Assembly (NCBI RefSeq): GCF_963675585.1 | Contig: NZ_OY776414.1 | Location: 2,893,001 to 2,957,000 of the forward strand | Origin: an uncultured Draconibacterium sp. | GTDB lineage: Bacteria > Bacteroidota > Bacteroidia > Bacteroidales > Prolixibacteraceae | Reading direction: 5' to 3' | DNA length: 64,000 bases | Shown here: piece by piece, positions 43,240 through 61,726 of the stretch | Layout: the number at the start of each line of letters is the position of its first letter | Numbering within the stretch: position 1 is the stretch's first letter | The notes under the pieces: model-generated | Told to the model about the DNA's origin: nothing | Database searches by the model: none | What the model saw: only the letters and a program-made list of their open reading frames with translations | Position numbers and translations under genes: made by a program

Positions 43240-44349
43240 TTATTCTCCAAAACAATACACATTTCCATCGTAGGCTCCAACAAAAATCTTCCCGTTTGCA
43301 ACAGCCGGATTGCTGATTATCTGACTGCCCAGCTCATATTTCCAAACAGGCTTGCCATCCGAAAGGTTCACAATGGCCAGGTCGCCTCGCATATTTGCAA
43401 CAAGCACCTTGTTTTTTACTATAACCGGCGATGCTTCAACATTACGCCCGGTGTTGTATTCCCATAGTTTTTCACCCGTATTTTTATCAAAGCAATACAA
43501 AAATTTATTGTAATTGGCCGTTAAAACTTTGTTTCCGATTAATGCCGGCGAAGCAATAAATTGCAGCTTTGTTTTTTCATGTTCCCAAACCCATAAGGTT
43601 TTGTCGGTTGTAATATCCACCTGGAAAAAACGACCGTCGTAATCTCCAATATAGGCTTTATTATTTTCAACTGTAATGGAGCTTGCTACATAAGTTGCCA
43701 CATCTATTTTTTTCACCAATTTACCAGTGGCAATATCAACCATGTGCAAATATCCGTCGCAGCCACCAAAAAATGCAGAACCATCGGAACAGGCAGCCGC
43801 ACCGTTTATAAAATTGTCCGATTCGTATTTCCAAAGTCCTTTGCCGGTTTCAGCATCAACACAATGTAAATAGTAATCGTAACTCCCCACTACAATATAA
43901 GTTTTGCCGCCAACGGTCCACCAGTTCGCCGATCCAATAATTTGATTCTCACACTCGTATTCCCATTTCTTTTTACCCGATGTTAAATCGAGTGCGATCA
44001 ACATTCCATCCAAATTTCCTATATAAACCGTATTATTTAAAACAAGAGCCGGCGCTTCGATGGAGTTGCCGCTTTCAAATTTCCAAATTAATTTGCCATT
44101 TGTATCGATACAATATACCCAACCGTCGGTGGATCCAACTACAAGTTTGCCATCAACAATTACCGGTGCCGATTTTATATTATCGCCGGTTTCAAAAGTC
44201 CATTTCAACTTGGGTGAATCAGGCAAAGAAGTACCCGAAACGCCGGTCAGATTTTGGTTGCCACGAAATATCGGCCACGAATCGGCAGTCTGCGCATTTA
44301 CATTGAAGGCCAACCAAATTGAAAATAGTATAAATTGTATTTTTTTCAT
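43240..44349 (-). CDS. Exported PQQ-like beta-propeller protein 1 (BamB-like)
   Basis: 369 residues. Signal peptide MKKIQFILFSIWLAFNVNA. About eight repeats of the pattern G-x-YCxD-xxTGxxxWxxE are visible (GWVYCIDTNGKLIWKFE, YYLHCVDAETGKGLWKYE, KFLYCFDKNTGEKLWEYNTG, GNVYCFGE), a typical eight-bladed PQQ_2 propeller. No vicinal Cys pair or other PQQ-site hallmark is seen, so cofactor binding is doubtful. It is the most divergent of the six paralogs and is separated from the rest by the RAYT element. Confidence 0.88.
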   Translation of the reverse strand: MKKIQFILFSIWLAFNVNAQTADSWPIFRGNQNLTGVSGTSLPDSPKLKWTFETGDNIKSAPVIVDGKLVVGSTDGWVYCIDTNGKLIWKFESGNSIEAPALVLNNTVYIGNLDGMLIALDLTSGKKKWEYECENQIIGSANWWTVGGKTYIVVGSYDYYLHCVDAETGKGLWKYESDNFINGAAACSDGSAFFGGCDGYLHMVDIATGKLVKKIDVATYVASSITVENNKAYIGDYDGRFFQVDITTDKTLWVWEHEKTKLQFIASPALIGNKVLTANYNKFLYCFDKNTGEKLWEYNTGRNVEASPVIVKNKVLVANMRGDLAIVNLSDGKPVWKYELGSQIISNPAVANGKIFVGAYDGNVYCFGE

Positions 44350-44384
44350 TACTTACCTTTTAATCCTGAAAAGGATTGAATTAA

Positions 44385-44445
44385 AATAGCCGTAGGTAAA
44401 ACCTACGGAAAATTATCCGCCTAATATTACAACCCGAATAGGGTT
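44385..44445. repeat. Left REP-like hairpin pair of the RAYT element
   Basis: Outer hairpin 44385-44408 (AATAG + CCGTAGGT/ACCTACGG) and inner hairpin 44431-44445 (AACCC-GAATA-GGGTT). Both have inverted partners on the right side. Confidence 0.85.
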
Positions 44446-44449
44446 GAAT

Positions 44450-44896
44450 TTATAACAAATACCTCTCATCAAATTTAACTCCATGTTCTTCGAGCAACTC
44501 TTTAAATTCTTCGTTGAATGATTTCACACGATGATGTTCATGTTGATTCCTAATATAATTCACCAATATTTTCTTTTGATCAATATGATATGTAAATGCA
44601 CCATAACCTTCTTGCCAAGAAACAAAATCTGGAAATATTTTTTGCTTTTTAATCCAAACAGAAGAAGAAACTTTTATATCCTTTACCAAATCTGAGACAG
44701 AAACAGTTGGATGTACATGTGTCAGAATATGTAAATGATTTTGAGTTCCATTCAATTGATACAAAGTACAATTCTTATTTTTCAATACTCCCCAGATATA
44801 TCGATACAATTTATCAACTTCATCCTGTATCATTGTATTTTCTGCATTTTTTGTTGAAAATACGATCTGATAAAGTATTTGAGTAAAAGTTGCCAT
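44450..44896 (-). CDS. REP-associated tyrosine transposase (Y1/IS200-like)
   Basis: 148 residues of the Y1_Tnp family. The HUH motif is NHLHIL (His-x-His near residues 53-55). The late helix GYGAFTYHIDQKKILVNYIRNQHEHH carries the candidate catalytic Tyr and the family ending. It is shorter than mobile IS200 elements with tnpB and has no accessory gene. The flanking hairpins identify it as a REP-associated, possibly domesticated, transposase. Confidence 0.92.
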   Translation of the reverse strand: MATFTQILYQIVFSTKNAENTMIQDEVDKLYRYIWGVLKNKNCTLYQLNGTQNHLHILTHVHPTVSVSDLVKDIKVSSSVWIKKQKIFPDFVSWQEGYGAFTYHIDQKKILVNYIRNQHEHHRVKSFNEEFKELLEEHGVKFDERYLL

Positions 44897-44912
44897 AACC
44901 TTTCGTTTTATT

Positions 44913-44973
44913 GAACCCTATTTGGGTTCTTTTCGCCTCGCATTGTTCGCCGTAGGTTCCACCTACGGCTATT
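44913..44973. repeat. Right REP-like hairpin pair of the RAYT element
   Basis: Inner hairpin GAACCC-TATTT-GGGTTC (44913-44930 region) and outer hairpin CCGTAGGT/ACCTACGG + CTATT (44950-44973), inverted partners of the left pair. Confidence 0.85.
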
Positions 44974-44979
44974 ATTGTT

Positions 44980-46554
44980 TTACTCCTTCGGAGTCTTATT
45001 CACTTTATTCTTTTTTAATGAAATAGCACCGGTTGGGCAACCATCAACAACTTTTGCTGCTGTTTCTGTTAATCCTTTTTCCAGAGCTTCGTTAAACGGA
45101 ACACCGATTACCACGTCGAAACCTCGCCCAACATATGTAAATCCAAATTCTTCGCCGTACTTTTCAGTAAGCCGAACACAAATTCCGCACTTAATACATT
45201 TTTGCGGTTCGTAAACCACTGATCCATGGTTAATTTGTTTCGAAATATTTCGTCGATCGCTGGTTTTAAACCGTTTCTGATCAGCAGCGTACGTATTGGA
45301 ATATTCGCGCAACTTACAATTATCAATCGCACGGCAGTCACAATGCAAACACCTCTTGGCTTCGGCAATGGCTTCCTCTTTGGAGAATCCTGAACGACCA
45401 CCTTTTTCAGGATAAGTACGTTTCCCTTCAACTGATTCTTTTAAATATTCTGCATACTCTTCCTGAACCAGTTTGCCAAACCTCGAATTAAACAAGCGCA
45501 GTTCGCCTTTTATTTCTACATTATTCAGAAATTGCATAACAGAAAAAGCCGCCTCTTTCCCTTGTCCAACCGAACGAACAGCCAAACGCGAAGAACGCAA
45601 CACATTTCCAATGGCAAACACTTTTTTATCCGAAGTTTGATAGGAGTCTTTATTAGCGATAATCCCTTTTGGAGTAGCTTTTAAACCATATAATTCTGAG
45701 TTTTCTTCAACTTTGCCGGTAGCAATTATTATGGCATCGAAGTCTTTTTTATACGACTCAAATTCAGAAGCACCAATATTCGATGATCCCACAAATTCCA
45801 CACCGGTTCTCAGAATTAATTCTATTTCCTTATCGAGCACCTCCATTGGAAGAATTTCTTCCGACAAAGAAGTTCTCAGCAAACCGCCTGCCTTTTCATT
45901 TTTATCGAAAAGTGTTACCTGAATACCTTCTAACTGAAGATAATACGCCGCGGCAAGTCCGGCCGGACCCGCTCCGATTACAGCAACCTTTTTACCTGTC
46001 GGGTTCGGTGTATTCCAATCCGCCGTATTTCCATCGTCACCAACAATACGTTTTAGCAGACAGATTGAAATGGGTTCGTCCACTGTTTTTCGGTGACACG
46101 CACCTTCACAGGGAGCCGGACAAATTCGCCCTAAAACAGCAGGCAAAGCAATGTCCTTCTTTACTACCTGCAAAGCCTCATCCAGTTTACCCGCAGCAAT
46201 CAAACGGTTCATTTTTGGAATATCCATGTGGGCCGGGCATGCAATCTGGCAAGGAGCTTCGCAGTCGCCAACATGCTCACTCAACAACAATTCCAATGCT
46301 GTTTTCCGCGATTCGCTCACTTCCTCATCATTGGTAATTACTTCCATTCCTTCCGAAACTTTTACCGAACACGAAGGAAAGAGTTTGCCGTTCGACTGGT
46401 CTTTTACCATACAAATCATACAGGAAGTAAAGTGCTCCAGTTCATCGTGCCAACACATATTCGGGATTTCAATTCCCATTTGCTGAGCGGCTTTCATCAC
46501 CGAAGTACCTTCCGGAACCTGAATTTCTTTGTTATTTATTTTTAGTGTTATCAT
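44980..46554 (-). CDS. Fe-S/FAD protein: NuoG-like ferredoxin head on a GltD-like FAD domain without NAD(P) subdomain
   Basis: 524 residues. [2Fe-2S] ferredoxin head with C34, C45, C48, C62. GltD-type Fe-S domain with C98, C102, C106 and C145, C149, C153. FAD motif VAVIGAGPAGLAAAYYL (about 190-206) and FAD-closing motif VFAIGNVLRS (about 312-321). C-terminal Cys clusters C402/C405/C407/C413 and C453/C456/C459 with C506. Only about 122 residues separate the two FAD motifs, and no second dinucleotide motif (GGGN-type) is seen, so the NAD(P)-binding subdomain of GltD/NfnB appears absent. Electrons would come through Fe-S clusters, probably from the adjacent NuoEF fusion. The last residues TPKE are encoded by a RAYT-flanking palindrome. 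Confidence 0.85.
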   Translation of the reverse strand: MITLKINNKEIQVPEGTSVMKAAQQMGIEIPNMCWHDELEHFTSCMICMVKDQSNGKLFPSCSVKVSEGMEVITNDEEVSESRKTALELLLSEHVGDCEAPCQIACPAHMDIPKMNRLIAAGKLDEALQVVKKDIALPAVLGRICPAPCEGACHRKTVDEPISICLLKRIVGDDGNTADWNTPNPTGKKVAVIGAGPAGLAAAYYLQLEGIQVTLFDKNEKAGGLLRTSLSEEILPMEVLDKEIELILRTGVEFVGSSNIGASEFESYKKDFDAIIIATGKVEENSELYGLKATPKGIIANKDSYQTSDKKVFAIGNVLRSSRLAVRSVGQGKEAAFSVMQFLNNVEIKGELRLFNSRFGKLVQEEYAEYLKESVEGKRTYPEKGGRSGFSKEEAIAEAKRCLHCDCRAIDNCKLREYSNTYAADQKRFKTSDRRNISKQINHGSVVYEPQKCIKCGICVRLTEKYGEEFGFTYVGRGFDVVIGVPFNEALEKGLTETAAKVVDGCPTGAISLKKNKVNKTPKE

Positions 46555-46593
46555 TTCTATTAAAGTTGCAAGTTACATGTTGCAGGTTTCTGG

Positions 46594-46708: not shown

Positions 46709-46739
46709 AAAGCCGTTTTTGTTATCAACAACCTGAAAC

Positions 46740-49082
46740 CTACCTTACATCAATGGCGTCAACAGGACATGCTGCGCGGCAGGCATCACATTTTATACAC
46801 AGTTCAGTATTAATCGAATGTTTTTCGTGTGGCGTAAAAGGAATCGCATCTACCGGACATTTCTGAACACATTTGGTACATCCAATACATTCATCGTTTA
46901 CCGAATAAGTTATCAGTTCGGTACATTTCCCGGTCGGGCAAACACCATTAATGTGCGCTTCGTACTCGTCCCTGAAATATTTCAAGGTACTTAAAACCGG
47001 ATTTGGGGCCGTTTTCCCCAGTCCGCACAAACTTCCTTTTTTGGTCCAATCGGCTAAATGCTCAAGTTCTTCAATATCGCCTTGTTTGCCTTTCCCCGAT
47101 GTAATATTTTCAAGAATATCCAGCATTCGTTTTGTTCCAACCCGGCAGAAAGTACATTTACCGCACGATTCTTCCTGTGTAAACGACAGAAAATAACGGG
47201 CAATGTCAACCATACAATCGGTGTCGTCGAGTACAACCAAACCTCCCGACCCCATCATTGCACCCATTTCAGACAAAGACTCATAATCAATGGGAGTATC
47301 GGCAAATTCGGCCGGAATACATCCTCCGGAAGGTCCACCAATTTGCACCGCCTTAAATTTCCGGCCATTGGCAATTCCTCCGCCAATTTCCTCAATTACC
47401 TGTTTTACAGTAATTCCCATGGGCACTTCAATCAGACCTCCGCGAGCCACTTTACCGGCCAGTGCAAACACTTTTGTTCCGGCACTTTTCCCGGTCCCAA
47501 TTCCTTTAAACCCGGCCGATCCTTCCCGCAAAATGTATGAAATCTGTGCCAGTGTTTCGGTATTGTTAACCAGGGTTGGTTTTCCCCACAAACCGCTTTG
47601 CGCCGGAAATGGCGGACGCATTCTCGGAAATCCACGGTTTCCTTCGATGGATGCAATTAAGGCACTTTCTTCACCACAAACAAAAGCACCTGCACCTTCG
47701 TAAATCTGAAGGTTGAGATTAAAACCACTTCCCAAAATGTTTTCGCCAAGGTAATTTCTCTCTTTACAGATTTTTATGGCTTCGCGAATCCGTTTTACTG
47801 CCAGCGGATATTCAGCACGAATGTAAAAATAGCCCTCATGAATTCCCACCGCATATGCAGCAATCACCATGCCTTCAATCACACGATAAGGATACGATTC
47901 CAAAAGCATACGGTCCATAAATGCTCCGGGATCACCTTCGTCGCCATTACAAATAATATATTTTGTATCGTTTTTTTCCTTTTTAACCAAACTCCATTTA
48001 AGTCCGGTGGGGAAGCCTGCTCCCCCACGCCCGCGAATTCCACTTTCTTTTACCTCCTCAATTACTTCATCTGAACTCATGGTTTCGAGTACCTTTTTCA
48101 TGGAAGTAAAACCACCGCGCTTAATGTATTCGTCCACATCAAGCGGATTGATGATTCCACGGTATTCGGTAGCAATCGGAACTTGTTTTCCAAGAAATGA
48201 GGCTACCGGTTTTTCGCGCATACTTATTTCGTAGCGCTCAACACCGTCCCAATTCCGATCGGTTTGTATGGTTTCAACTGTGTGAAGCAGCTTATTTTTT
48301 AGTTTTGATAACAAGCCGGGGGCTTCAAAATGATTTTCAACAATATTCTTTACGTCTTCGGGTTTCACCTTTGCATATAAAGTTGGTTCGCCCTCGTTCG
48401 GAACAATTTCAACCAGCGGCACCTGGTGGCACATACCTACACAGCCCACATGTTTCAGCTTTACACGCAAACCACTTTCGTTAACCACACTTTCAACTTC
48501 CTGCTGAATTTCCTGACTTCCGCTGGCTACGCAACACGATCCCAAACCGATGCGTATTTCGCCTTTTATTTCTGAACCATCCGCTTTCCGGGCTTTTTTT
48601 GAGTATTTTTTTCCGGCCTGGCTTTCAAAATCTTCTATAATTTGTCCCACCTGATCGGGAGCCACATGGCCGTATGTTGTTTCATCAATCTGCACCACCG
48701 GAGCCAAAGTACAACACCCCAGACAAGCCACTTTTTCGAGCGTGTATTTTCCCGACATGTCAGTTTCTTCGCCATCCGACAGATTAAATTCGCGCCGGAA
48801 AGCATCGTAAACCTGACCAGCACCTTTTACGTGGCAAGCCGTCCCCACGCATACTTTAATCATGTGTTCACCCACCGGAGCCAAGCGAAACTGAGAGTAA
48901 AAACTAGCCACTCCAATGATTTCAGCAGCAGAAATTTCAGTCTTTTTAGCCAGGTATTTCAGCACATCTTCGGGCAAATAATTGTATTCCTTCTGAATGG
49001 CCTGAAGTATTGGAATCAAGCTTTTTTTTGTTGATCCCTTTTCCGTGATTAGCTGGTCTATATTTTGAAAATTATTATCCAT
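46740..49082 (-). CDS. Fused NuoE-thioredoxin-like-NuoF-diferredoxin NADH module
   Basis: 780 residues from the ATG at 49082; the longer frame to 49112 is repeat-encoded (MSPRLCGVKN). Order: NuoE [2Fe-2S] domain (C78, C83, C120, C124); second thioredoxin-like [2Fe-2S] domain (about 175-265); NuoF with FMN loop RGRGGAGFPTGLKW, NAD-binding GDEGDPGAFMDR and N3 cluster motif SCGKCTFCRVG; then two [4Fe-4S] ferredoxin motifs CIGCTKCVQKCP and CIKCDACRAACP. This is HndA+HndB+HndC/HydB-like in one chain. It oxidises NADH or reduces NAD. No hydrogenase catalytic subunit is nearby; the FAD/Fe-S protein takes that place. Confidence 0.93.
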   Translation of the reverse strand: MDNNFQNIDQLITEKGSTKKSLIPILQAIQKEYNYLPEDVLKYLAKKTEISAAEIIGVASFYSQFRLAPVGEHMIKVCVGTACHVKGAGQVYDAFRREFNLSDGEETDMSGKYTLEKVACLGCCTLAPVVQIDETTYGHVAPDQVGQIIEDFESQAGKKYSKKARKADGSEIKGEIRIGLGSCCVASGSQEIQQEVESVVNESGLRVKLKHVGCVGMCHQVPLVEIVPNEGEPTLYAKVKPEDVKNIVENHFEAPGLLSKLKNKLLHTVETIQTDRNWDGVERYEISMREKPVASFLGKQVPIATEYRGIINPLDVDEYIKRGGFTSMKKVLETMSSDEVIEEVKESGIRGRGGAGFPTGLKWSLVKKEKNDTKYIICNGDEGDPGAFMDRMLLESYPYRVIEGMVIAAYAVGIHEGYFYIRAEYPLAVKRIREAIKICKERNYLGENILGSGFNLNLQIYEGAGAFVCGEESALIASIEGNRGFPRMRPPFPAQSGLWGKPTLVNNTETLAQISYILREGSAGFKGIGTGKSAGTKVFALAGKVARGGLIEVPMGITVKQVIEEIGGGIANGRKFKAVQIGGPSGGCIPAEFADTPIDYESLSEMGAMMGSGGLVVLDDTDCMVDIARYFLSFTQEESCGKCTFCRVGTKRMLDILENITSGKGKQGDIEELEHLADWTKKGSLCGLGKTAPNPVLSTLKYFRDEYEAHINGVCPTGKCTELITYSVNDECIGCTKCVQKCPVDAIPFTPHEKHSINTELCIKCDACRAACPVDAIDVR

Positions 49083-49091
49083 ATTCTTTAC

Positions 49092-49250
49092 ACCGCAAAG
49101 TCGCGGAGACACTAATATTTCTTTTTAAAATCGAATTTCAATCCTATTTTCAATGTGCGGCGCATCATACTTTTTCTTTTTAGACTAAAAACGTGGATGC
49201 GCCTTTTACTCACTTTGTTCGTTCTCCCCCGGGTTAAAACCTGGCTTATT
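49092..49250. repeat. Repeat-rich spacer between NuoEF fusion and propeller 2
   Basis: Contains CACCGCAAAGTCGCGGAGACAC (49092-49113), an inverted GGCGCATC/GATGCGCC pair (about 49152-49204), and a REP-like palindrome CCGGGTT-AA-AACCTGG (49229-49244) followed by CTTATT, resembling the RAYT hairpin plus CTATT. It carries no convincing gene; the open frames here are repeat-derived. Confidence 0.6.
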
Positions 49251-49271: not shown

Positions 49272-51137
49272 TTATTTTCCGATGCAATACAAATTATTCT
49301 CGCCACGAATATAAATCCGGCCATCGCTGAATGCAGGAGTTGTTCCGGCAGTTTCGCCCAATTCATTTTCGCTGATCTTTTTCAACTCTTTTGAGAACTC
49401 GTAAATACGCATTACTCCGTCGTTGTCCATCATAAACAATTTACCGTCCGCAACTACGGGCGATGCATATAAGGTTGATCCCAAATCGTCTTCCCAGAAT
49501 TGTTCGCCTGTTTTTGCATCGTAGCAAACCAGAACACCATAACTTGTTGCAATAATCAATAATCCACTGTGTGCCAGCGGACTTGCAGCTTCCGGCATGT
49601 ATTCGTCGTTCTCCCAAATTATTGAAGCATTTTTTGGATCGATGGCAACCAATCGCGCATATTCGTTGGCGGCAAAAACAACACCATCGCTAAAAGCAGC
49701 CGAAGGGCCAACTTCACCCATCATACATTCCACTTGCCAAAGTTCCTTTCCGGTTTCAACATCGTAACCGGCAACAATTGGATCGGCTGTTAAAACAACC
49801 TGATACTTACCATCAATCTCAGCTAATATAGGACTCGCCCACGAGATTTTAGAGTCGCGTACCGTTTCCCAAACCGTTTCTCCGTTTGAAGTATTCAATG
49901 CCAATATTTTGCCGCCCCTATTTGTATCGTACTGAACCAAAACTTTGTTTGCCCAGGTAATTAAGGAAGACGAATGACCGTAATGATTGTCGGGCACACC
50001 TAAATTTCGAGCCCACAAACGTTTGCCATTCAAATCAAAAGCGATCACATCGCCAGTGGCAAAAATGGCATAAACTCCTTTATTATCAACGGTTAATGTA
50101 GGTGCCGCGAGGCCGGTATCTTCCGTTACCCGCGGCGGACTTGCCGGCGATCCCGGAACATTATCAGCTACACCGGTCCAAAGTAATTTCCCATCGTTGC
50201 GGTTGTAACAATATACTTCGCGTGTGGTATTGTCGGCGCCGGCAATAAATATTTTATCGCCCCAAATAACCGGCGAATTATAGCCATGTTTTGGAATGGG
50301 CGATTTCCAGAGTACGTTTGTTCCTGCAGATCCGTTCCATGTTGTAGGAATATTTTTATGAGCAATTACGCCTTGTCCAAGTGGCCCGCGCAATGAATTG
50401 TGATTTTTCTGCAAGTCGGCCAAAGTTATTCCGGTTGCAACTGCTGTTTTAGCCGCCGGTTCTTTTTGTGCATGCGTATTCTTTTCTTCTGTTATTTCCG
50501 TCTCTTCAGCAACATTTTCATCCGAATCTGATTTTTCGGTTTCGGTATTTTTTACCGTGCTTGTTTCAGCAACTTCGGTTTTTGAAATTTCGCCAACTTC
50601 AATCACTTCTATTCCTTCGGTTTCGGGAGATGATACGGCTTCGGCAGATTGTGTTTCAGTATTGTAATAATTTAAGTGATTTACTGTGGCAAATGAAGCC
50701 AATACAGCCAATATCAACACCGTTGCTCCCACAATTATAATTCCTTTCTGAGCAAGAATCCGACTTGCAATTTCATTTTCAAGTTTGGCATCAGGTTCTT
50801 CAATTTTACTTTTTACAGAATAATAAACTCGTAATGCAAATGCCAGAATAATGGCTCCAAACAACAACAAATATGCGCCGGTTTTAACCTGCCACTGGCT
50901 GTTGAAATACGCTTTGCGGGCCAGCAAATCAAAATTGCGGATTTCTACTTTTAATTCATCGTTATTGGGTTCCTGTTTGAGGCGCTGAACCAATGCCTCA
51001 AGCGCCTTGCTTTCGATGGGGTCGGTTTTGGAAACCTGCCAAAAGTTAAGAAGCAACAACATGGCCACCGCAAGGCAAAAAATACCGGCTATTACAGCTA
51101 TGTTTTGTGAAAGTTTCAGTTTATCAGTTGTATTCAT
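49272..51137 (-). CDS. Membrane PQQ-like beta-propeller protein 2
   Basis: 621 residues from the ATG at 51137 (MNTTDKLKLSQ). Three hydrophobic segments (about 12-34, 88-108, 133-153) are followed by a Glu/Thr-rich linker (about 165-235) and a C-terminal PQQ-like propeller (LLWTGVADNVPGSPASPPRV, GKILALNTSNGETVWETV, GVLVCYDAKTGEQFWEDDLG). The membrane part is unique among the six paralogs here. It may dock the propeller near the polyferredoxin encoded upstream. Cofactor unknown. Confidence 0.88.
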   Translation of the reverse strand: MNTTDKLKLSQNIAVIAGIFCLAVAMLLLLNFWQVSKTDPIESKALEALVQRLKQEPNNDELKVEIRNFDLLARKAYFNSQWQVKTGAYLLLFGAIILAFALRVYYSVKSKIEEPDAKLENEIASRILAQKGIIIVGATVLILAVLASFATVNHLNYYNTETQSAEAVSSPETEGIEVIEVGEISKTEVAETSTVKNTETEKSDSDENVAEETEITEEKNTHAQKEPAAKTAVATGITLADLQKNHNSLRGPLGQGVIAHKNIPTTWNGSAGTNVLWKSPIPKHGYNSPVIWGDKIFIAGADNTTREVYCYNRNDGKLLWTGVADNVPGSPASPPRVTEDTGLAAPTLTVDNKGVYAIFATGDVIAFDLNGKRLWARNLGVPDNHYGHSSSLITWANKVLVQYDTNRGGKILALNTSNGETVWETVRDSKISWASPILAEIDGKYQVVLTADPIVAGYDVETGKELWQVECMMGEVGPSAAFSDGVVFAANEYARLVAIDPKNASIIWENDEYMPEAASPLAHSGLLIIATSYGVLVCYDAKTGEQFWEDDLGSTLYASPVVADGKLFMMDNDGVMRIYEFSKELKKISENELGETAGTTPAFSDGRIYIRGENNLYCIGK

Positions 51138-51270
51138 ATTTTTTTTAATCGCTGGAAGATTGAAAACCAAGTTGGATGTATTTATCCTGAAGGTATCTCA
51201 ACCTGCATTATTTATTCTTTTCTTATATCAATTTTGTTTGTTAAAATCAATTCAACGGTTTATTAATTTG

Positions 51271-53529: not shown

Positions 53530-54495
53530 TCATTTTAACTCAAACACTCTCAATACATTTCTGTCAAAATCGAGTGCATAAATGTTCCCCTCGCTATCAA
53601 CTGCAACATCCGGCGCCTGTCCTTCAATTTTTTCATCAAATTTATCGGGAGCAGCAACCACTCCTAAAAACTCGCCCGACGGTTTATATACTTTTACGCG
53701 CACCAATCCTTTTTCGCTGGTAACAAAACTCCCCCCGGGTAAAAACGTAAAATGGGCCGGATTACAGCAGCCGCTAAAATTTTCGGTACTTGCTCCACTT
53801 GCTTTCCAGTGTTCACGCAGGTTTCCATCGGTAGTATAATTTTCGAGCGAATGCAGTCCCGGATTTACCACCCATAAATCATCGTATTCGTTTATATCAA
53901 TATCAAAATACGGGCTGGGCACAATAAATCCATGCAGAACATCTTCACTTGCTTTCCCCTCAAATTCATTTTGAAGCTCTCCGGCTTTGTTATATCGCAT
54001 AATTTTTCGTGTACCTGCATCGGCAACAAAAACATTCTCCTCACTTATAGAAATAGCCGTTATGTACGAATTATCATCTTCAAACTTCCATTCGGCCAAT
54101 GTTTCGCCGGAAGGGTTCATTAGCTGAATTCGTTTTTCGAAAGCCACATAAATAACACCATCCGAAACTTCAACAGTGTGTGGCTCTTCCCCCAATTCGT
54201 ATTCACTCAGGAGTTTCCCTGAACGATCGATGATCTTTAATTTTTGATCTCCCACCAAATAGATCTTATCTTGATCTATCGTAATTCCGGCAGGTTCGTT
54301 AAAACCTACCTTAAAATTCTTTGTCTCTTTGTAAAGAATCAGGTCTTCAGGTACATCTCTAAACTCATCAACACTGTACGCAAACTTGTTCGCCTCCATA
54401 TTGTCGGGTCGTTTCGAGTACCAGTCGCCAACCATAACCGCAACGATTACAACTGCCAGCACAATCAGAAAAAGTACGATTCCTTTGTTCTTCAT
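53530..54495 (-). CDS. Membrane-anchored NHL-type propeller protein
   Basis: 321 residues. An N-terminal anchor (about 5-24, IVLFLIVLAVVIVAVMVG) is followed by NHL-like repeats (GITIDQDKIYLVGDQKLKI, DIDINEYDDLWVVNPG, AVDSEGNIYALDFDRNVLRVF), roughly six blades. The segment ENFSGCCNPAHF carries a vicinal Cys pair, the only one among the propellers here. No enzymatic motif seen. It probably faces the periplasm next to the ferredoxin pair. Confidence 0.85.
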   Translation of the reverse strand: MKNKGIVLFLIVLAVVIVAVMVGDWYSKRPDNMEANKFAYSVDEFRDVPEDLILYKETKNFKVGFNEPAGITIDQDKIYLVGDQKLKIIDRSGKLLSEYELGEEPHTVEVSDGVIYVAFEKRIQLMNPSGETLAEWKFEDDNSYITAISISEENVFVADAGTRKIMRYNKAGELQNEFEGKASEDVLHGFIVPSPYFDIDINEYDDLWVVNPGLHSLENYTTDGNLREHWKASGASTENFSGCCNPAHFTFLPGGSFVTSEKGLVRVKVYKPSGEFLGVVAAPDKFDEKIEGQAPDVAVDSEGNIYALDFDRNVLRVFELK

Positions 54496-54563: not shown

Positions 54564-55985
54564 TCAACTGTTCAAATCTATACAGACCATTGTTTTTGAG
54601 TCGCGTAGTATGAGGTAGCCATCGGCAATGGCAAAAGGTGCCCATGCATCATGACCGTCTTCTATTATTTTAACTTGTTCCAGTTGAATGTATTCTTTTG
54701 TACTTGGACGTAAAATGGTCAAAGTTCCATCGTCGTTTAAAATGAAAAATTTGTTGTCGGCAATAAAATACGGCCCCAGCCCAAAACGCGATTCTTTATC
54801 ACTCGCCCAGATAATTTTTTTTGTATCGGCCGGATCGACACAAACAAATTGATTTCGGTTTGAACCACCATCTTTTGGAACAATTCCAAAAAGATGACCA
54901 TTCCAGTACACCGGTGTTTGTTGCTCACAGGCCAGTCCGTCTTTTGGTTTGTATTCATCTAATGTTGCTATACTAAACGTACCGTTATTTTCAGTCAGTT
55001 GCAACATCATACTCCCTGCTCCGTAGCCGGCAGTCATAAATATTTTTCCATCGGGCATACACACCGGCGACGGAGCAACAACAGAATGGTTCCAGTCCGA
55101 AGTTTCCCACAATATCTGACCGGTTTCGGGACCATCGGCAGCTACTCCGGTTAATGCACCAATGCTGCTGTACACATACATTTTACGACCACCAAATTCG
55201 TAAGGCATAATCGATGAGTGCGACATTTTATATGCGTTCGGATTCGGAGTTTCCCATAATTTCTCGCCAGTTTCGCAATCCACACCAATCATCAAAGCAC
55301 TTCCTCCGGTAGCTAAAACAGCCACGTCGTTATCAATTAAAGGGCACTGACCTGTGTACCAAAAAGGAATTTCGTTTTGATATTCCTTCACAATATCCAG
55401 CCCCCAGCGGAAATCTCCGGTTTCGCGGTCGAGACACATCACATGGCATTTGGGGCCAATGGTAACAATGTATTTTTCAGTAATTGCCGGAATGGTTCTC
55501 GACATTCCATGATTTCGTTTAACAGCTACATCGTAACCACGGGTCCACAATTCTTTCCCATCAACAAGCGAAATACAGCGCAATATATCGGCACGTTCCT
55601 CTTCGTTGTAATCCAAAACATACGCCAATCCCTTCCAAATTGCAGCTCCTGAATGTCCTTCACCCAAGGTCATCGACCACATTATTTTGGGGCCATCGGC
55701 GCCGAACTTTTCGATCAGTTTTACCGGCGATTTTGAAATATTGTCGTGATCAGCTCCCCTGAAATTGGTCCAGGTTTCGGAAAGTTCCCGGTAGTCAGAG
55801 GCAAATTCCTGAAAATGTTCACCAATGTTTACATCCTGCGGAGCAACTCCTTTCCCACGATTATCTGCACCTTCCAGGTTAATGGTAAAATCTTTGGTCG
55901 GGTCGTTGTTCAACCACCAGAATACAACTATAAATCCCAATATTCCCAGGCTGATTAGAATGATATTTATGGTTCGTTTTGTCAT
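54564..55985 (-). CDS. Membrane-anchored PQQ-like beta-propeller protein 3
   Basis: 473 residues from the ATG at 55985, chosen because AAGGA precedes it and the longer frame to 56039 is encoded by a dispersed repeat. N-terminal anchor about 6-24 (IILISLGILGFIVVFWWL), then a propeller with TWTNFRGADHDNIS-like start (ETWTNFRGADHDN), GLAYVLDYNEEERADILRC, HVMCLDRETGDFRWGLD and DGTLTILRPS. No Cys pair. It lies between the NHL gene and propeller 4. Confidence 0.88.
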   Translation of the reverse strand: MTKRTINIILISLGILGFIVVFWWLNNDPTKDFTINLEGADNRGKGVAPQDVNIGEHFQEFASDYRELSETWTNFRGADHDNISKSPVKLIEKFGADGPKIMWSMTLGEGHSGAAIWKGLAYVLDYNEEERADILRCISLVDGKELWTRGYDVAVKRNHGMSRTIPAITEKYIVTIGPKCHVMCLDRETGDFRWGLDIVKEYQNEIPFWYTGQCPLIDNDVAVLATGGSALMIGVDCETGEKLWETPNPNAYKMSHSSIMPYEFGGRKMYVYSSIGALTGVAADGPETGQILWETSDWNHSVVAPSPVCMPDGKIFMTAGYGAGSMMLQLTENNGTFSIATLDEYKPKDGLACEQQTPVYWNGHLFGIVPKDGGSNRNQFVCVDPADTKKIIWASDKESRFGLGPYFIADNKFFILNDDGTLTILRPSTKEYIQLEQVKIIEDGHDAWAPFAIADGYLILRDSKTMVCIDLNS

Positions 55986-55998
55986 TTTGTTCCTTATT

Positions 55999-56070
55999 GT
56001 CATTTCGAAAGAGGAACGACTGAGAAAACCCTGCTCCACTGAACAGATTTCTCCTCATTCTTCGTCGAAA
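55999..56070. repeat. Dispersed inverted repeat between propellers 3 and 4
   Basis: TGTCATTTCGAAAGAGGAAC (from 55999) and CTCATTCTTCGTCGAAA (to 56070) are imperfect inverted ends around GAGAAAACCCTGCTCCACTG. It encodes the false N-terminal extension of propeller 3 and ends 6 nt before the stop of propeller 4. Confidence 0.7.
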
Positions 56071-56076
56071 CAACAG

Positions 56077-57318
56077 CTATTCTTTAATATTATAAATCAT
56101 TAACACATCGCCATGCCGGACAAATAATTTGCCATCATAAATGGCAGGATGCGCCCAATGCGGCCCGGCACCTGCATCAACTTTAAAGTTACTTATTATT
56201 TTAAGACTATCGGTTGACGGTTCTGCCAAAGCAACGTTTCCACGTTTCTCTTCATACAAATAAAGCATGTCATCAGCCGTAATTATCGCCCCTTTGTTCT
56301 CCCAATCCTGTTCCCATTTCGTTTCACCGGTTTCCCAGTTTACACTTGCCCATTTCCCCCGGGAATTATTTTCCCAGGTTGAACCGTAAATATTTCCTTC
56401 AACGAAAACAACACCACCATGGTGTGTATCGAGTATATTATTTTCCCATTTTAATTTAATCGATTTTCCGTCATCTGACAATGAAAACAACAGGGCCGGA
56501 TGTTCGTAACCGCTTGTTACAAAAATTTCGCCATTATGATATAAGGGCGCATTGGTTTGTGCCCCCTTCCCGTTTTCGTGTGTATGGTACTGGAACAGGT
56601 TATAACTCCACAATATTTCTCCATTTAAGGGATTTACTCCGATAAGATTGTCGGCGGTTTGAACCAAAACGATTTCCTGCCCCTGATGATTGATCAAAGT
56701 GGGTGAAGCATATGATTTTGTTCCACCCAAACTTTTGGTCTTCCAAACCTGATTGCCGGTATCTTTATTAAAAGCCACCATGGTATTGATTTCTCCACCG
56801 GTTACATAAAAAACTAAATTACCCGCAACCAGCGGAGCCTCGGCATCGCCATGTTTATGTATTTCTCCTGAATAATTTTTTACCGCGTCAATTTTCCAGA
56901 GTGTATTTCCGCTTTTTGCATCCACACAACTTAGCTGACCGGTACCGCTCGAAACGTATAATTTACCATTGCTATACGTAGGTGTACTCCGGCTATCGAT
57001 GTACGATCGTGTCCACGAGCGCCCGTAAGGAGTCTCCCACAACAATTCACCATTAAAATTAAAAGCTGACAAAATATCGGTTGTATCTTGTTTTATTCCT
57101 GTAATAAAAATCGTTTGACCAACAACAATGGCTTGCGAAAAACCTTTTCCAACACCTTCAATTTTTTTAAATAGCTCAGGACCCGATTCCGGCCATTCTT
57201 TTAACAAGCCCGTTTCGTTGTATAATCCTGAACGGTTGACTCCTCTCCACTCCACAACTTCCTGGCTAAATAACCGGATGGTGAAAAGAAGAAACAATAT
57301 GGCGAAACCACTTTTCAT
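56077..57318 (-). CDS. Exported PQQ-like beta-propeller protein 4
   Basis: 413 residues. Signal peptide MKSGFAILFLLFTIRLFSQ, then the shared head VEWRGVNRSGLYNETGLLKE and WPESGPELF. Blades include GQLSCVDAKSGNTLWKID and MVAFNKDTGNQVWKTKSLGG. The shared tail is GAGPHWAHPAIYDGKLFVRH with GDVLMIYNI. It is close to propellers 5 and 6, indicating duplication. Such proteins are often labelled BamB-like or alcohol dehydrogenase; no dehydrogenase residues are evident. Confidence 0.9.
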   Translation of the reverse strand: MKSGFAILFLLFTIRLFSQEVVEWRGVNRSGLYNETGLLKEWPESGPELFKKIEGVGKGFSQAIVVGQTIFITGIKQDTTDILSAFNFNGELLWETPYGRSWTRSYIDSRSTPTYSNGKLYVSSGTGQLSCVDAKSGNTLWKIDAVKNYSGEIHKHGDAEAPLVAGNLVFYVTGGEINTMVAFNKDTGNQVWKTKSLGGTKSYASPTLINHQGQEIVLVQTADNLIGVNPLNGEILWSYNLFQYHTHENGKGAQTNAPLYHNGEIFVTSGYEHPALLFSLSDDGKSIKLKWENNILDTHHGGVVFVEGNIYGSTWENNSRGKWASVNWETGETKWEQDWENKGAIITADDMLYLYEEKRGNVALAEPSTDSLKIISNFKVDAGAGPHWAHPAIYDGKLFVRHGDVLMIYNIKE

Positions 57319-57372: not shown

Positions 57373-58611
57373 TTAATTCGCTTTTATATTGTACACCATT
57401 AAAACATCGCCATGGCGTAAAAGCAGTTTCCCATCAGAAATATAAAGATGCGCCCAATGCGGACCTGCTCCTTTTGTTACTTTAAACTGGCTAACTACGT
57501 CAAATCCATCAGGATCAGGTTTTATAATTCCCACATTTCCTTTTTCGTTGTAAGCATAAAAAAGTCCGTCAGCCATTACCATTGAACCTTTTGTATCCCA
57601 ATCAGCCACATACATAATTTCACCGGTATTCCAATTCATACAAATCCACTTGCCGCGTTTATTATCGCGCCAGTTTGAACCATACAAATAACCATCGTGC
57701 AGAATAACTCCATGATGATGATTATCAAAAGTATGATCAATAAATTTTTCAGTAACCCCGGTTCCTAAACTATCCATCTCAAGCATCACCGCCTGATAAT
57801 CATATCCCATGGTAAGAAAAATCTGATTGTCTTTAAACACAGGAGTGTTTGTCCAAATTAATCCATTTTGATCCCACTTTTCGGGACTCCAGTATTTATA
57901 GTGCCATGCAATCTCACCTGTCTCAGGAATTACAGCAAGCAAATCAGTTCCAATTACCGCTAAAATATATCGTAAATTTTTGTAGTTGTAAACAGTTGCT
58001 GAAGCGTAGGCACGGGGTCCTCCCAGCGATTTTGTTTCCCATACCGTTTCGCCTGTCATTTTATTTAGAGCAACTACACTAGTTTCTTGTCCTCCTGGTG
58101 TACAAATTACCAAATCGTCGACAATTAGCGGAGTTTCAGAATTCCCCCAAATATGGTACTCTCCTTCAAAATCTTTGTCAACTTCGACGGCCCAGTTCTC
58201 CTTGCCCGAATTTCGATCGATGCAAGCCACGCGACCGGTTCCGCTTTGTACATAAATCCTGTCGCCTTCAATTACCGGTGTGCTTCGTGTATCGGGAAAA
58301 GATTTGTTCCACGAACGACCGTATGTTACCTGCCAGTTAAAAGTACCGTCTGAATTTATTGAAGTAAGATAATCCAGTGTGTCGATCATTCCTGTAGTAT
58401 AAATTACTCCGTCGTACAAAATTGGAGAAGAATACCCCTTCCCTATTTTTTCCACCTCCAATAAAAGTTCAGGTCCGTTTTCGGGCCAGGCTTTTAAGAG
58501 GTTGGTTTCGGGGAAGTGTCCATCGCGATTTGGACCCCGCCACTGTGTTACCTGAGCCGTTAATGCCAGGCTAAACAAGATCAATAGAATAGTTAATTTA
58601 GATTTTTTCAT
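57373..58611 (-). CDS. Exported PQQ-like beta-propeller protein 5
   Basis: 412 residues. Signal peptide MKKSKLTILLILFSLALTAQ, head QWRGPNRDGHFPETNLLKAW, tail GAGPHWAHLYISDGKLLLRH plus GDVLMVYNIKA. It aligns with propeller 4 over nearly its full length (for example TYGRSWNKSFPDTRSTP against PYGRSWTRSYIDSRSTP). It starts 14 nt after the response regulator gene, so it is the first structural gene under the two-component operon. Confidence 0.9.
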   Translation of the reverse strand: MKKSKLTILLILFSLALTAQVTQWRGPNRDGHFPETNLLKAWPENGPELLLEVEKIGKGYSSPILYDGVIYTTGMIDTLDYLTSINSDGTFNWQVTYGRSWNKSFPDTRSTPVIEGDRIYVQSGTGRVACIDRNSGKENWAVEVDKDFEGEYHIWGNSETPLIVDDLVICTPGGQETSVVALNKMTGETVWETKSLGGPRAYASATVYNYKNLRYILAVIGTDLLAVIPETGEIAWHYKYWSPEKWDQNGLIWTNTPVFKDNQIFLTMGYDYQAVMLEMDSLGTGVTEKFIDHTFDNHHHGVILHDGYLYGSNWRDNKRGKWICMNWNTGEIMYVADWDTKGSMVMADGLFYAYNEKGNVGIIKPDPDGFDVVSQFKVTKGAGPHWAHLYISDGKLLLRHGDVLMVYNIKAN

Positions 58612-58625
58612 GGTTTATTAATGTT

Positions 58626-59342
58626 CTAAAACGAATTATAATTCAATTTTTCGAAAGTAGTTTTCCGGTAACGTGTACCTATTGGAAATTCTTTTCCGGC
58701 AAGAGTTACCATAACCGGGCTAAAACTGGTTATTCGGTTTTTCGCCACCAAATAAGAGCGATGAATACGAATAAATAATTTTTCGGGTAGCGTTTTTTGT
58801 ATGGAAGAAATGGTTGCCCGGCTGTTAATTTCGCGATCGTTGGTGTGAAGCTTTATGTAATCGCCAAAACTCTCAACAAAAATTACTTCGGAAACAGGCA
58901 CCTTGTGAATTATATTTTTTTCGCGGAGGTAAATGTACTCCTCATCTCCATTATTTTTATGGAGCGACACTTCGCTAATTGTTATATTTTGCTGATTATA
59001 TTTATCAATGGTTTGCAAAAAGCGCTCAAACGAAATGGGTTTTAACAAATAGTCGAGAATGTTTAATTCGTAGCTTTCGATTGCATATTCGCGATACGCG
59101 GTTGTAAAAACCACTGCCGGAGGATTCTGCAGGGTTCTCACCAAATCGGTCCCCTTCATTTCTGGCATTTGAATATCCAGAAACATTAAATCCACATCAT
59201 TATTTTTCAAAAAGTCAAATGCTTCAACAGCATCAAAACAGGTGCCCACCACCTGCAGTGAACTAACCTTTTGAATGTGCGATTTTAGCACTTCTGTGGC
59301 CAAAGGTTCATCGTCTACTATTAAACATTTTGTTTTATTCAT
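58626..59342 (-). CDS. LytTR-family response regulator
   Basis: 238 residues. Receiver domain with phospho-acceptor Asp56 (VDLMFLDIQMPEMKG) and C-terminal LytTR DNA-binding domain (VIFVESFGDYIKLHTND, LFIRIHRSYLVAKNRI). It overlaps the kinase gene by 8 nt and is followed directly by propeller 5, so it probably controls the redox operon. Confidence 0.94.
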   Translation of the reverse strand: MNKTKCLIVDDEPLATEVLKSHIQKVSSLQVVGTCFDAVEAFDFLKNNDVDLMFLDIQMPEMKGTDLVRTLQNPPAVVFTTAYREYAIESYELNILDYLLKPISFERFLQTIDKYNQQNITISEVSLHKNNGDEEYIYLREKNIIHKVPVSEVIFVESFGDYIKLHTNDREINSRATISSIQKTLPEKLFIRIHRSYLVAKNRITSFSPVMVTLAGKEFPIGTRYRKTTFEKLNYNSF

Positions 59343-60390
59343 TTTTCAAAAAAACTACCAGGTTAACTTCAAATTCCTTTTCATTTTGATGAATATTGAG
59401 TTTATACGAACCGGGATAAATTAATTCCAGTCGTCGTTGTACATTTTTCAATCCGATTCCTTCGCTCAACGCCAGATCTTTTTTCATATCGCCAAGTGTT
59501 GAATTTAACACTTTTAGTTTTAGCGAATCATCTTTGATATCAATGCTTATCCTTATTTTTGGATTTGTACGATCGTTGCTGGCACCGTGTTTAAAGCTGT
59601 TTTCGATAAAAGGCAACAAAAGTAATGGAGCAATTACATGCGAATCGGCTTTTCCATTTACTTGGTATTCTAAATCCAAACGATTGTTGTATCGTAACTT
59701 TTCAAGTTCAATGTAACTGTCCAAAATTTCCAGCTCGTTTGAAAGGGCTACAAACTTGTCGTTACTTTTATAAATCATATAATCGAGTAATCCCGATAGC
59801 TTTAACACCACATCGGATGTACGATCTGATTTTATGAGGGTTAAAGCATACAAATTATTCAACGTATTAAATAAAAAGTGTGGATGAATCTGCGACTTCA
59901 GAAAACTTAATTCAGCTTCTAATTTTTCTTCTGCCAGTTTCTGCTTTTGTATTTCATCGAGGTACCATTTTTTAAAAATTACAACGGTTGATGCCATTAC
60001 CGGCACACCGTAATTGGTAATTAAAAGAATGAAAATCTTTTCAGGATAAATAAACGGCAATTTCGAATAATCGAAATGATCGGGAAATAAATTAAGCTGC
60101 CGCAATGTTAAGTAAATTGCGGTACCAAAAACAATGGCGTGAATGAACAGATAAATTGCAAATCTCAAAAATCGTTTGGGATGAAAAGCCTTGGGTAAAA
60201 TCCAGTAAATAAGAATATAAGTACCAATAATTCGCACCGGCATTAACGACAGGTTGTACATCCCTTCTTCGTAATAGTTTCCCCAATATCCGCCATACGA
60301 AAGCGAATACAAAAGAAATATCACAATCCAGAAAAGGACGTGCCACACTATACGATACCTAAAAATTATGGGAAGCCGATCTTTATTCAT
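59335..60390 (-). CDS. LytS-family membrane histidine kinase
   Basis: 351 residues. Four membrane helices in residues about 12-140, a short coiled coil (KLAEEKLEAELSFLK) and the His_kinase domain with QIHPHFLFNTLNNLYAL (His171). The HATPase part has LLLPFIENSFKHG (N box) and EGIGLKNVQRRLELIY. No periplasmic sensor domain is visible, so sensing may use the membrane helices. Cotranscribed with the LytTR regulator. Confidence 0.94.
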   Translation of the reverse strand: MNKDRLPIIFRYRIVWHVLFWIVIFLLYSLSYGGYWGNYYEEGMYNLSLMPVRIIGTYILIYWILPKAFHPKRFLRFAIYLFIHAIVFGTAIYLTLRQLNLFPDHFDYSKLPFIYPEKIFILLITNYGVPVMASTVVIFKKWYLDEIQKQKLAEEKLEAELSFLKSQIHPHFLFNTLNNLYALTLIKSDRTSDVVLKLSGLLDYMIYKSNDKFVALSNELEILDSYIELEKLRYNNRLDLEYQVNGKADSHVIAPLLLLPFIENSFKHGASNDRTNPKIRISIDIKDDSLKLKVLNSTLGDMKKDLALSEGIGLKNVQRRLELIYPGSYKLNIHQNEKEFEVNLVVFLKNE

Positions 60391-60408
60391 TTTGATTTTT
60401 GATTGCTA

Positions 60409-60416
60409 CAAATTTA
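60409..60416 (-). promoter_or_regulatory. Candidate promoter of the kinase-regulator-propeller operon
   Basis: Minus strand TAAATTTG matches TAnnTTTG, 18 nt before the kinase ATG. No -33 element at the ideal distance. It lies downstream of the terminator of propeller 6, consistent with an independent start here. Confidence 0.45.
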
Positions 60417-60460
60417 TTCTTCCAGAACTTTAATATGGCATACCAACGATGAATAGAACG

Positions 60461-60498
60461 CAAAAAGAGATGTTTAACTGTTTAAACACCTCTTGAGC
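60461..60498 (-). terminator. Terminator of propeller 6
   Basis: On the minus strand AAGAGGTGTTTAA, loop, TTAAACATCTCTT then T-rich. The 13-position stem has one mismatch. It separates propeller 6 from the kinase operon. Confidence 0.75.
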
Positions 60499-60514
60499 AT
60501 GTAAAATTTTATAC

Positions 60515-61726
60515 TTATTTAATTTTATATACAACCAAAGCATCGCCGTGATGAACAAACAGGCGGCCGTTGTTTATTACCGGATGTGCCCAGTGTTGTG
60601 CCGAGCCCAGCTCAACTTTTGTTTGGCTTATTACCTTAAAAGCATCAGGCGTTGCTTCAACCAAAGCCAGCTCACCACGTTCGCTGTAACAGTACAACAT
60701 TCCATCGGCATAAATGGTTACTCCTTTTGCAATTGATTTATCAACGTAGGTTTCAGCTCCGGTTTCCCAGTTCACACAACGCCATTCGCGTGCATTATCG
60801 CCCGATCCGTATAGATAACCATCAACTACTACCATTCCACCCATCCGGCTGTCGAGTTCCTTTTTGCTCCAAACTTCTTTCACACTGCTTCCATCATCAC
60901 TTAACGCTAACATTTCGCCACCTTGTCCGTAACCACTAAAACAGAACAAACTACCATTATAAAAAATCGGCGTATTAGGATGTACTTTCCAACGATTTGT
61001 GTGCGGGAAATCCCAAAGTAACTGACCGTTTTTAGCATCTAATCCGATAATATGATCTGCAGTATGTGTTACCAAAAGAGTACGCGATGGCAGTTTTAAT
61101 AAAAGAGGGGAACAATAGGCAGAAAGTTCTCCTTTTCCTGCCGAAGTCCAGACTAAGTCGCCGGTAAAGCGGTTAAGCGCAACCACATTATTTTTCTTTC
61201 CACCCGGTGTTACGTATACCACATCGTCGGTTACAACAACGGTTTCGGTTACACCCCAGGTAATGTTTTGTCCATCAAAATCTTCAAATACATTTTTTGT
61301 CCATTTTGCATTTCCGTTATTGGCATCCATGCAATAAAGAACACCATAACCCGAATACATATACATTAAATCACCTGCAACTACAACCGACGAGCGAGCT
61401 CCCGGATAACTATCCTTAAATTCGTTGCCGTACTCTTTTTTCCATTGCAGTTTTCCATCCTGATTAAAAACAAAAATGTAACCTTTCGAATCAATCATCG
61501 ACGATAGATAAATTAATCCGTTTGCAAATACCGGCGACGAATGACCTTCTCCCAGGCCTTCAAACGACCAAAGTATTTCGGGTCCGTTTACCGGCCATTC
61601 TTTTAAAAGGCCTGTTTCGTTGTATATTCCACTATTGTTTTCGCCACGCCATTTTGTGGGTGTTTGGGCAAAAACCGAAGTTGAAAGAATTAGACATGCG
61701 AAGAATAAAAATGCTTTTTGAATCAT
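60515..61726 (-). CDS. Exported PQQ-like beta-propeller protein 6
   Basis: 403 residues. Signal peptide MIQKAFLFFACLILSTSVFA, head KWRGENNSGIYNETGLLKEW, tail GSAQHWAHPVINNGRLFVHH plus GDALVVYKIK. It is a paralog of propellers 4 and 5. Two cysteines (VLYCMDANNG and AYCSPLL) are isolated, not paired. It is a separate transcription unit upstream of the two-component genes, with its own terminator. Confidence 0.9.
   Translation of the reverse strand: MIQKAFLFFACLILSTSVFAQTPTKWRGENNSGIYNETGLLKEWPVNGPEILWSFEGLGEGHSSPVFANGLIYLSSMIDSKGYIFVFNQDGKLQWKKEYGNEFKDSYPGARSSVVVAGDLMYMYSGYGVLYCMDANNGNAKWTKNVFEDFDGQNITWGVTETVVVTDDVVYVTPGGKKNNVVALNRFTGDLVWTSAGKGELSAYCSPLLLKLPSRTLLVTHTADHIIGLDAKNGQLLWDFPHTNRWKVHPNTPIFYNGSLFCFSGYGQGGEMLALSDDGSSVKEVWSKKELDSRMGGMVVVDGYLYGSGDNAREWRCVNWETGAETYVDKSIAKGVTIYADGMLYCYSERGELALVEATPDAFKVISQTKVELGSAQHWAHPVINNGRLFVHHGDALVVYKIK

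Follow-up and report, generated by a model that had tools for sequence, protein, structure and literature searches.

The window analysed here is a stretch of 64,000 nucleotides from an uncultured Draconibacterium sp. (contig NZ_OY776414.1; source assembly of 6.03 Mb in 4 contigs). It carries a minus-strand redox locus, positions 37327-61726, whose conserved gene set is predicted to join a cytoplasmic module for reduced nicotinamide adenine dinucleotide (NADH) and ferredoxin, a NapH-like membrane relay and periplasmic propeller proteins. The centre of the locus is a seven-gene core in the order pqq491-NHL-polyferredoxin-NapH-tmPQQ-NuoEF-FAD/Fe-S (FAD, flavin adenine dinucleotide; Fe-S, iron-sulfur; PQQ, pyrroloquinoline quinone), encoded on one strand. 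All seven genes of this ordered core are found in 53 of 85 loci, spanning Bacteroidota to Planctomycetota. The core almost certainly constitutes one functional unit. An earlier reading made from the DNA letters (the sequence-only reading) had described a redox locus of this kind, with an NADH-linked flavin/Fe-S module, a NapGH-like relay and six propellers. Domain scans and translations recover all the genes that it named, on the minus strand as described, and sequence comparison supports such a joined gene set. The locus was first drawn too small (43240-61726), since a block encoding a glycosyltransferase, an ATP-binding cassette (ABC) ATPase and an FtsX permease (37327-43127) had been overlooked.

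The 85 loci were found via the polyferredoxin (45 from named genomes and 40 fetched), and the profiles were built from these loci; the 85 polyferredoxin sequences are all distinct. Pairwise distances of nine proteins other than FtsX, for which only 4 full sequences were available, are correlated, with r of 0.87–0.96. Together with the 53 complete ordered cores, these correlations place the conservation of the neighbourhood far above chance. Conservation at chance level, for which the sequence-only reading had proposed a check, was not seen. Among the 74 loci that hold both NHL and polyferredoxin, 56 have, ahead of the polyferredoxin, a small protein with a twin-arginine translocation (Tat)-type start and four Cys, the usual companion of the core. 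Besides the two blocks (the core and the transporter block described below) and genes shared by close relatives only, no recurrent flanking gene between distant genomes was seen among the matches listed.

The closest named relatives of the polyferredoxin are in Draconibacterium (96% in D. aestuarii), followed further out by Maribellus, Sunxiuqinia and Mangrovibacterium, which points to a Draconibacterium-like member of Prolixibacteraceae as the source. One match each was found in 31 of 37 genomes of the genus (source genome included) and in 6 of 24 other genomes of the order. Of 295 genomes of the order, 48 carry the polyferredoxin, as do 32 of 294 from Planctomycetota, the phylum of locus L094. 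A phylum-wide sample yielded it in 1 of 395 genomes, the source genome alone, so the system is rare overall and concentrated in some groups. Because the genomes include drafts and few candidate places were scored in each (at most 8–11 for the polyferredoxin and at most two for FtsX), absences are soft. The 45 named loci also include records from Cytophagales, Saprospirales, Phycisphaerae, Lentisphaerae, Verrucomicrobia and Kiritimatiellae. In a tree of the concatenated core, shown without support values, loci from Cytophagales and Saprospirales fall within the Bacteroidales loci, a placement that suggests transfer of the core between lineages as a whole unit.

Thirty-two of the 85 loci fail the seven-gene test. 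Cut contigs account for some of them; in L202 and L212 the seven genes are complete, with an extra hit, and L214 has its FAD/Fe-S gene on the opposite strand. L091-L093 and L095-L097, mostly from Verrucomicrobia, Kiritimatiellae and Lentisphaerae, hold the polyferredoxin and NapH as a two-gene cassette without propellers, and L089 (Lentisphaerae) keeps only polyferredoxin, NapH and NHL. Nine Verrucomicrobia-, Kiritimatiellae-, Lentisphaerae- or Planctomycetota-type genomes, in which the polyferredoxin locus is without most of the core, were checked as split genomes. Close pqq491 homologues (E 1e-104 or better) lie outside the polyferredoxin locus in five of the nine; in a sixth, L090, pqq491 stands beside NHL in the locus, on a short contig. 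FAD/Fe-S homologues (E 1e-100 or better) are found elsewhere in four of the nine, adjoining NuoEF in L259 and L260 and a glycosyltransferase in L261. The retention of core parts in the absence of linkage argues for a common task. In L193, NuoEF, tmPQQ, NapH and NHL are each in two pieces, as from frameshifts (draft error or decay).

The cytoplasmic module comprises a NuoE-NuoF-2[4Fe-4S] fusion (46740-49112) and an FAD/Fe-S protein with Fer2/Fer4_20 domains (44980-46554). Nearest to the fusion are NuoF-like chains from structures of StnABC and of the NfnAB and HydABC types (E 1e-213 to 1e-185), and NuoF of complex I ranks behind them (E 1e-115). The Cys/His ligands of the fusion, identified by motif only, reach at least 95% conservation in 36 sequences. 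Specifically, the ligand sites of the NuoE cluster, the N-terminal 2Fe-2S cluster, the cluster on the flavin mononucleotide (FMN) side, a Zn-like site and two C-terminal 4Fe-4S clusters are all kept. By its domains and ligands the module appears to be of the bifurcating HydBC/StnAB type, and we infer that it performs electron bifurcation. The NuoEF-type NADH module of the sequence-only reading stands and can be assigned more narrowly to the HydBC/Stn type, which is bifurcating; its StnC-like partner is without the part binding nicotinamide adenine dinucleotide phosphate (NADP(H)).

The FAD/Fe-S protein, which is StnC/GltD-like, aligns to StnC residues 4-289 and 424-676, and the intervening part is skipped. 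Judged from its place in the GltD fold and from the second Rossmann motif of controls, the skipped part is the NADP(H)-binding part. With the same pattern, the second Rossmann motif is found in 7 of 8 GltD-type controls and in none of the 47 distinct homologues of the FAD/Fe-S protein that have the strict FAD motif. Nucleotides bind two Rossmann folds of the StnC domain, for which the accessible portion of the source gives no residue range; the same portion describes StnC Lys170 as strictly conserved across StnC proteins (PMC10482914). In StnC this Lys lies beside the cluster on the FAD side. The corresponding residue, Lys168, is conserved at 95% or more in 32 sequences; StnC Arg239 is replaced by Ile. 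The FdhF domain of StnC is without a counterpart, the alignment stopping at StnC residue 676 of 1172. Because the NADP(H)-binding part is gone, NADP(H) probably does not serve as the third partner of the module; the NapH-like membrane protein, encoded nearby, is the best candidate and most likely takes this place. The FAD-binding motif is clearly altered in L187, L188 and L217, and flavin loss is possible in some lineages.

The membrane relay is encoded by the NapH-like gene (51271-52680; PF12801). Its product has about seven hydrophobic segments by hydropathy, 15 conserved Cys and CX3CP motifs, and it scores far below the cut-off of TIGR02163 (50.1 of 213 bits). Immediately upstream lie the polyferredoxin (52688-53266), with a twin-Arg start and 17 conserved Cys, and the small Tat-like protein with four Cys, recognised in translation (53250-53447).

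Three propellers belong to the core, all with hydrophobic N-termini. The NHL propeller (53530-54495) and pqq491 (54564-56039, likely start 55985; PF13360) each have one such segment and are probably membrane-anchored, and tmPQQ (49272-51170; PF13360) has about three. The Pfam match of the NHL protein is weak. Its AlphaFold model (predicted local distance difference test, pLDDT, 90) is a propeller behind an N-terminal helix, with NHL domains as the nearest solved folds, in agreement with the sequence-only reading. The NHL propeller contains an invariant GCCNP motif (vicinal Cys243-Cys244). The model of pqq491 (pLDDT 90.8) has the same arrangement, and its nearest solved folds are BamB and tetrathionate hydrolase; 67 columns are invariant in 27 sequences. 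A metal-cluster role was considered for the four invariant Cys of pqq491 but is not claimed; on our reading they occupy the recurring strand position that is typical of such propellers.

PQQ chemistry at the propellers is unlikely. The PQQ-dependent dehydrogenase model TIGR03075 gives the window propellers at most 81.5 of 480 bits, and a vicinal Cys pair (CC) is absent from the PQQ-like propellers of the window; on these grounds we judged a reading of them as PQQ enzymes unlikely. The BamB equivalog TIGR03300 gives at most 150 of 285 bits.

Downstream of the core lies a second block, which consists of the PQQ_2 propeller pqqB (43240-44349), a GT4 glycosyltransferase with a conserved YCGNC motif (41826-43127), a LolD-like ABC ATPase identified by profile matches (40677-41360) and an FtsX/MacB-like permease of 1101 residues with a conserved DDASCLNLN motif (37327-40632). 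The LolD equivalog TIGR02211 gives 243.5 of 307.75 bits, under its cut-off. The N-terminus of pqqB is signal-like by eye only and passed no threshold for hydrophobicity. In distant loci the four genes of the block come after the core or adjoin it in a different order, and the distances of the glycosyltransferase and pqqB track the core within the range of correlations given above.

The permease also co-occurs with the polyferredoxin, as counted in two sets of genomes with Fisher p-values that ignore relatedness. Among 295 genomes of the order, 43 have both, 5 the polyferredoxin only, 4 FtsX only and 243 neither (p 3e-41); 20 of the 43 have the two genes on one contig within 25 kb. Among 294 Planctomycetota genomes, the corresponding numbers are 27, 5, 56 and 206 (p 3e-12), and 19 of the 27 pairs are not on one contig within 20 kb. 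FtsX is thus present in 43 of 48 and 27 of 32 polyferredoxin-positive genomes, respectively.

What the block may handle is suggested by 20 Planctomycetota FtsX loci, 18 from polyferredoxin-negative and two from polyferredoxin-positive genomes. Seven of them (L270, L271, L272, L274, L276, L278 and L286, the last from the polyferredoxin-positive genome G809) contain a six-gene set that encodes a HemN-like radical S-adenosylmethionine protein, a DUF98-like protein, a halogenase-like flavoenzyme, a thioesterase, a membrane protein and a PaaK-like ligase. At L271:12295-19999, and also in the other six-gene-set loci, this cluster stands with GT4, ABC and FtsX genes. The planctomycete clusters look like biosynthesis and export of an aromatic glycoconjugate, which suggests that the transporter block handles a compound of this type. 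A ketosynthase/aryl-polyene reading of these clusters was dropped because Pfam showed the PaaK-like ligase.

The DUF98-like gene, encoding a protein of about 190 residues, is present in 14 of 21 tested Planctomycetota genomes with FtsX only, in 2 of 27 with FtsX and polyferredoxin, and in none of 12 with neither; it is absent from 20 polyferredoxin-positive genomes of the order of the source. The difference between FtsX-only genomes and those with both has a Fisher p of 2e-5, with lineage uncontrolled. This near-exclusive pattern is weakened when only copies near FtsX are counted (8 of the 14 and 2 of the 2), p then rising to 0.013. For the protein itself, Pfam gave nothing and the one weak structure match is 2nwi (E 0.0009), named 'Hypothetical protein', which we take to be a DUF98 protein. 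A chorismate-lyase-like reading, which would depend on this single match, was not adopted.

From these data we propose the following mechanism. The NuoE-NuoF-ferredoxin fusion would act as a HydBC/StnAB-type flavin module that uses NADH and ferredoxin together, and the FAD/Fe-S protein would connect it to a third partner, which is NADP(H) in Stn and here would be the NapH-like membrane protein. Electrons would traverse the membrane via the Fe-S centres of NapH and pass to the polyferredoxin exported by Tat and to the small Cys protein. From there they would reach membrane-anchored propellers assembled in the periplasm, namely pqq491, tmPQQ and NHL with its vicinal Cys pair. In this way NADH and reduced ferredoxin would jointly supply low-potential electrons for a periplasmic reduction. 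The GT4 protein and the LolD/FtsX transporter may make and move a glycosylated substrate, or may load the periplasmic assembly. Outward flow of this kind, with one envelope-spanning redox machine driving a periplasmic reduction from NADH and ferredoxin, is the reading that we prefer, with confidence a little short of even. More doubtful, and offered tentatively, is the fuller proposal of a new trans-envelope class, in which an NADH/ferredoxin confurcating module has lost its NADP(H) site and has been re-plumbed into a NapH/polyferredoxin conduit for low-potential reduction of a glycosylated envelope substrate in a periplasmic multi-propeller complex supplied by its own ABC transporter, the whole moving between phyla as one unit.

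Several observations weigh against outward flow through one machine. No periplasmic enzyme of known activity is among the locus genes, so the reaction is a guess. The Cytophagales and Saprospirales that carry the system are probably not strict anaerobes, which is awkward for very low-potential chemistry in the periplasm. L199, L209, L210, L216 and L221 are without some core genes despite at least 9 kb on each side. The strict FAD motif is missing in 14 of 61 distinct FAD/Fe-S homologues, and the flavin may therefore not be essential everywhere; among 12 such homologues that were read, most have near variants, and the three altered sequences named above depart more. FtsX occurs without the polyferredoxin in those 56 Planctomycetota genomes, so the transporter block has other uses too. 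The five polyferredoxin-positive genomes without FtsX in each set also count against the reading, as soft absences. Finally, the available part of one study presents quinol as the presumed electron source of some NapH-like proteins (PMC8238504); the partner of the NuoEF/FAD pair might therefore be quinone, or something else again.

Electrons might instead flow inward, from a periplasmic donor oxidised at the propellers through the polyferredoxin and NapH to the HydBC-type module. That module would then bifurcate the electrons between NAD+ and ferredoxin, just as HydABC and Stn split those of H2 and NADPH. The propellers do resemble quinoprotein folds, and StnAB modules bifurcate in that direction, according to the portion of the Stn study available (PMC10482914). 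This route requires a donor with a potential close to that of H2 or NADPH, the PQQ-dehydrogenase models are far below their cut-offs, and the PQQ-like propellers are without the vicinal Cys pair. PQQ itself has a potential far too positive for such a donor. PqqE is above cut-off in none of 41 genomes of the genus and order, a count without a positive control, as 14 control genomes equally have none. Altogether, we consider inward flow unlikely. The nos system has a division of labour among a NapG/NapH-like relay, an ABC transporter and a propeller protein. By analogy, the locus could be a maturation machine like NosR/NosDFY, in which the Fe-S relay gives reductant, ABC/FtsX gives work or a ligand, and a cofactor or metal centre is assembled in a propeller, for example at the NHL Cys pair. 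The invariance of GCCNP fits this idea, as does the persistence of NHL with polyferredoxin and NapH in L089, and with pqq491 in addition in L090. Against it stand the lack of a metal chaperone or NosD/NosL-like gene among the scanned genes and an ATPase and permease of LolD/FtsX rather than NosFY type; we regard this reading, with its putative metal site, as distinctly improbable.

A further explanation separates the locus into two co-travelling machines: beside the redox core, pqqB-GT-ABC-FtsX would form a block of its own for exporting a glycoconjugate. The six-gene biosynthetic set in 7 of 20 planctomycete FtsX loci, one of them from a polyferredoxin-positive genome, speaks for it, and so does the enrichment of the DUF98-like gene in FtsX-only genomes (p 2e-5 over all copies, 0.013 for those near FtsX). 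The latter pattern may also mean that the core and the biosynthetic genes serve the block in alternative ways. The co-occurrence of FtsX with the polyferredoxin in both sets of genomes, including the 19 planctomycete pairs unlinked within 20 kb and with relatedness uncontrolled, counts against two machines, and so do the glycosyltransferase and pqqB distances, which follow the core. We regard this separation as very improbable.

Comparison with known systems sets the locus apart from each of them. NosR/NosDFY also unites an Fe-S relay, an ABC transporter and a propeller protein in a single locus; here the transporter is of LolD/FtsX type, and NosZ and Cu proteins are absent. With LolCDE/MacB the locus shares a LolD-like ATPase and an FtsX permease, but has a single 1101-residue permease with its own motif, and equivalog cut-offs are unmet. 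The Stn transhydrogenase of Sporomusa (StnABC; PDB 8OH5/8OH9) likewise has a NuoE-like protein, a NuoF-like protein with C-terminal ferredoxin clusters and a NuoG-N/GltD-like FAD/Fe-S partner with Lys170. Here NuoE and NuoF are fused, the partner has neither the NADP(H)-binding part nor the FdhF domain nor Arg239, and a membrane relay is co-encoded. The HydABC/Bfu family shares the HydBC-type core with all cluster ligands, and, in the part of the source available, is reported to couple HydBC modules to several catalytic subunits (PMC9304861); the present locus has a StnC-like adaptor instead of a hydrogenase or other catalytic subunit. NapGH and NapH-like systems have a membrane Fe-S protein with CX3CP motifs and a Tat polyferredoxin; the present NapH, with its low TIGR02163 score, adjoins an NADH/ferredoxin module, and no NapA/NapB nitrate reductase is found among the scanned locus genes. 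The accessible part of PMC8238504 describes NapH-like proteins as modular components, there with flavinylated partners, that transfer electrons into or out of the extracytosolic space. The FMN-binding domain of such flavinylated systems is absent from NapH and its scanned neighbours, the small Cys protein being outside the scan. The modules are known individually; their union in one locus is not described in the portions available of PMC8238504 and PMC9304861. The claim of an undescribed composition holds for the open-access full-text literature searched, which yielded no counterpart, most subscription papers lying outside the search.

The rest of the locus lies mainly upstream of the core. 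From pqq403 (61726) to pqqB (43240), every gene is on the minus strand, and neighbours either overlap or lie no more than 185 bases apart. Three secreted PQQ-like propellers with hydrophobic N-termini and PF13360 matches, pqq403 (60515-61726), pqq412 (57373-58611; conserved DNHH, GPHWAH and RHG motifs) and pqq413 (56077-57318), complete the six PQQ_2 propellers of the sequence-only reading, all confirmed; homologues of pqq403 head many Bacteroidota loci. The pair of LytS-type histidine kinase (59335-60390; PF06580) and LytTR response regulator (58626-59342; PF00072, PF04397), which the sequence-only reading had counted as part of the system, is a local, non-core regulator; each has a homologue in 7 of the 45 named loci, some of which are cut before the LytTR position. 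An IS200-like transposase (44450-44896, minus strand; PF01797), also overlooked before, lies between the FAD/Fe-S gene and pqqB. It is an insertion and not a part of the system; just two of the 45 named loci, L055 and L063, carry homologues of it, at different sites within the locus. Farther out, 28159-28989 encodes a flavin-reductase-like domain fused to rubredoxin, and 26727-27950 a 6-phosphogluconolactonase-type propeller protein that scores under NCBIfam cut-offs. The mqnB gene (25284-25970), which had been taken to fit a menaquinone-based chain, is real (futalosine hydrolase, above cut-off) but lies about 11 kb past the end of the block and is unlinked to the redox locus.

Electron bifurcation by flavins is mostly known from the cytoplasm, as a means of balancing soluble carriers. 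If the proposed mechanism is true, a bifurcating-type module wired through the membrane to a periplasmic reaction would extend bifurcation to the cell envelope. The strongly conserved gene set in named strains of Draconibacterium, Maribellus, Sunxiuqinia and Mangrovibacterium makes this question testable. In Bacteroidota and Planctomycetota many PQQ-like and NHL propellers are uncharacterised; the locus also places a few of them in a definite context.

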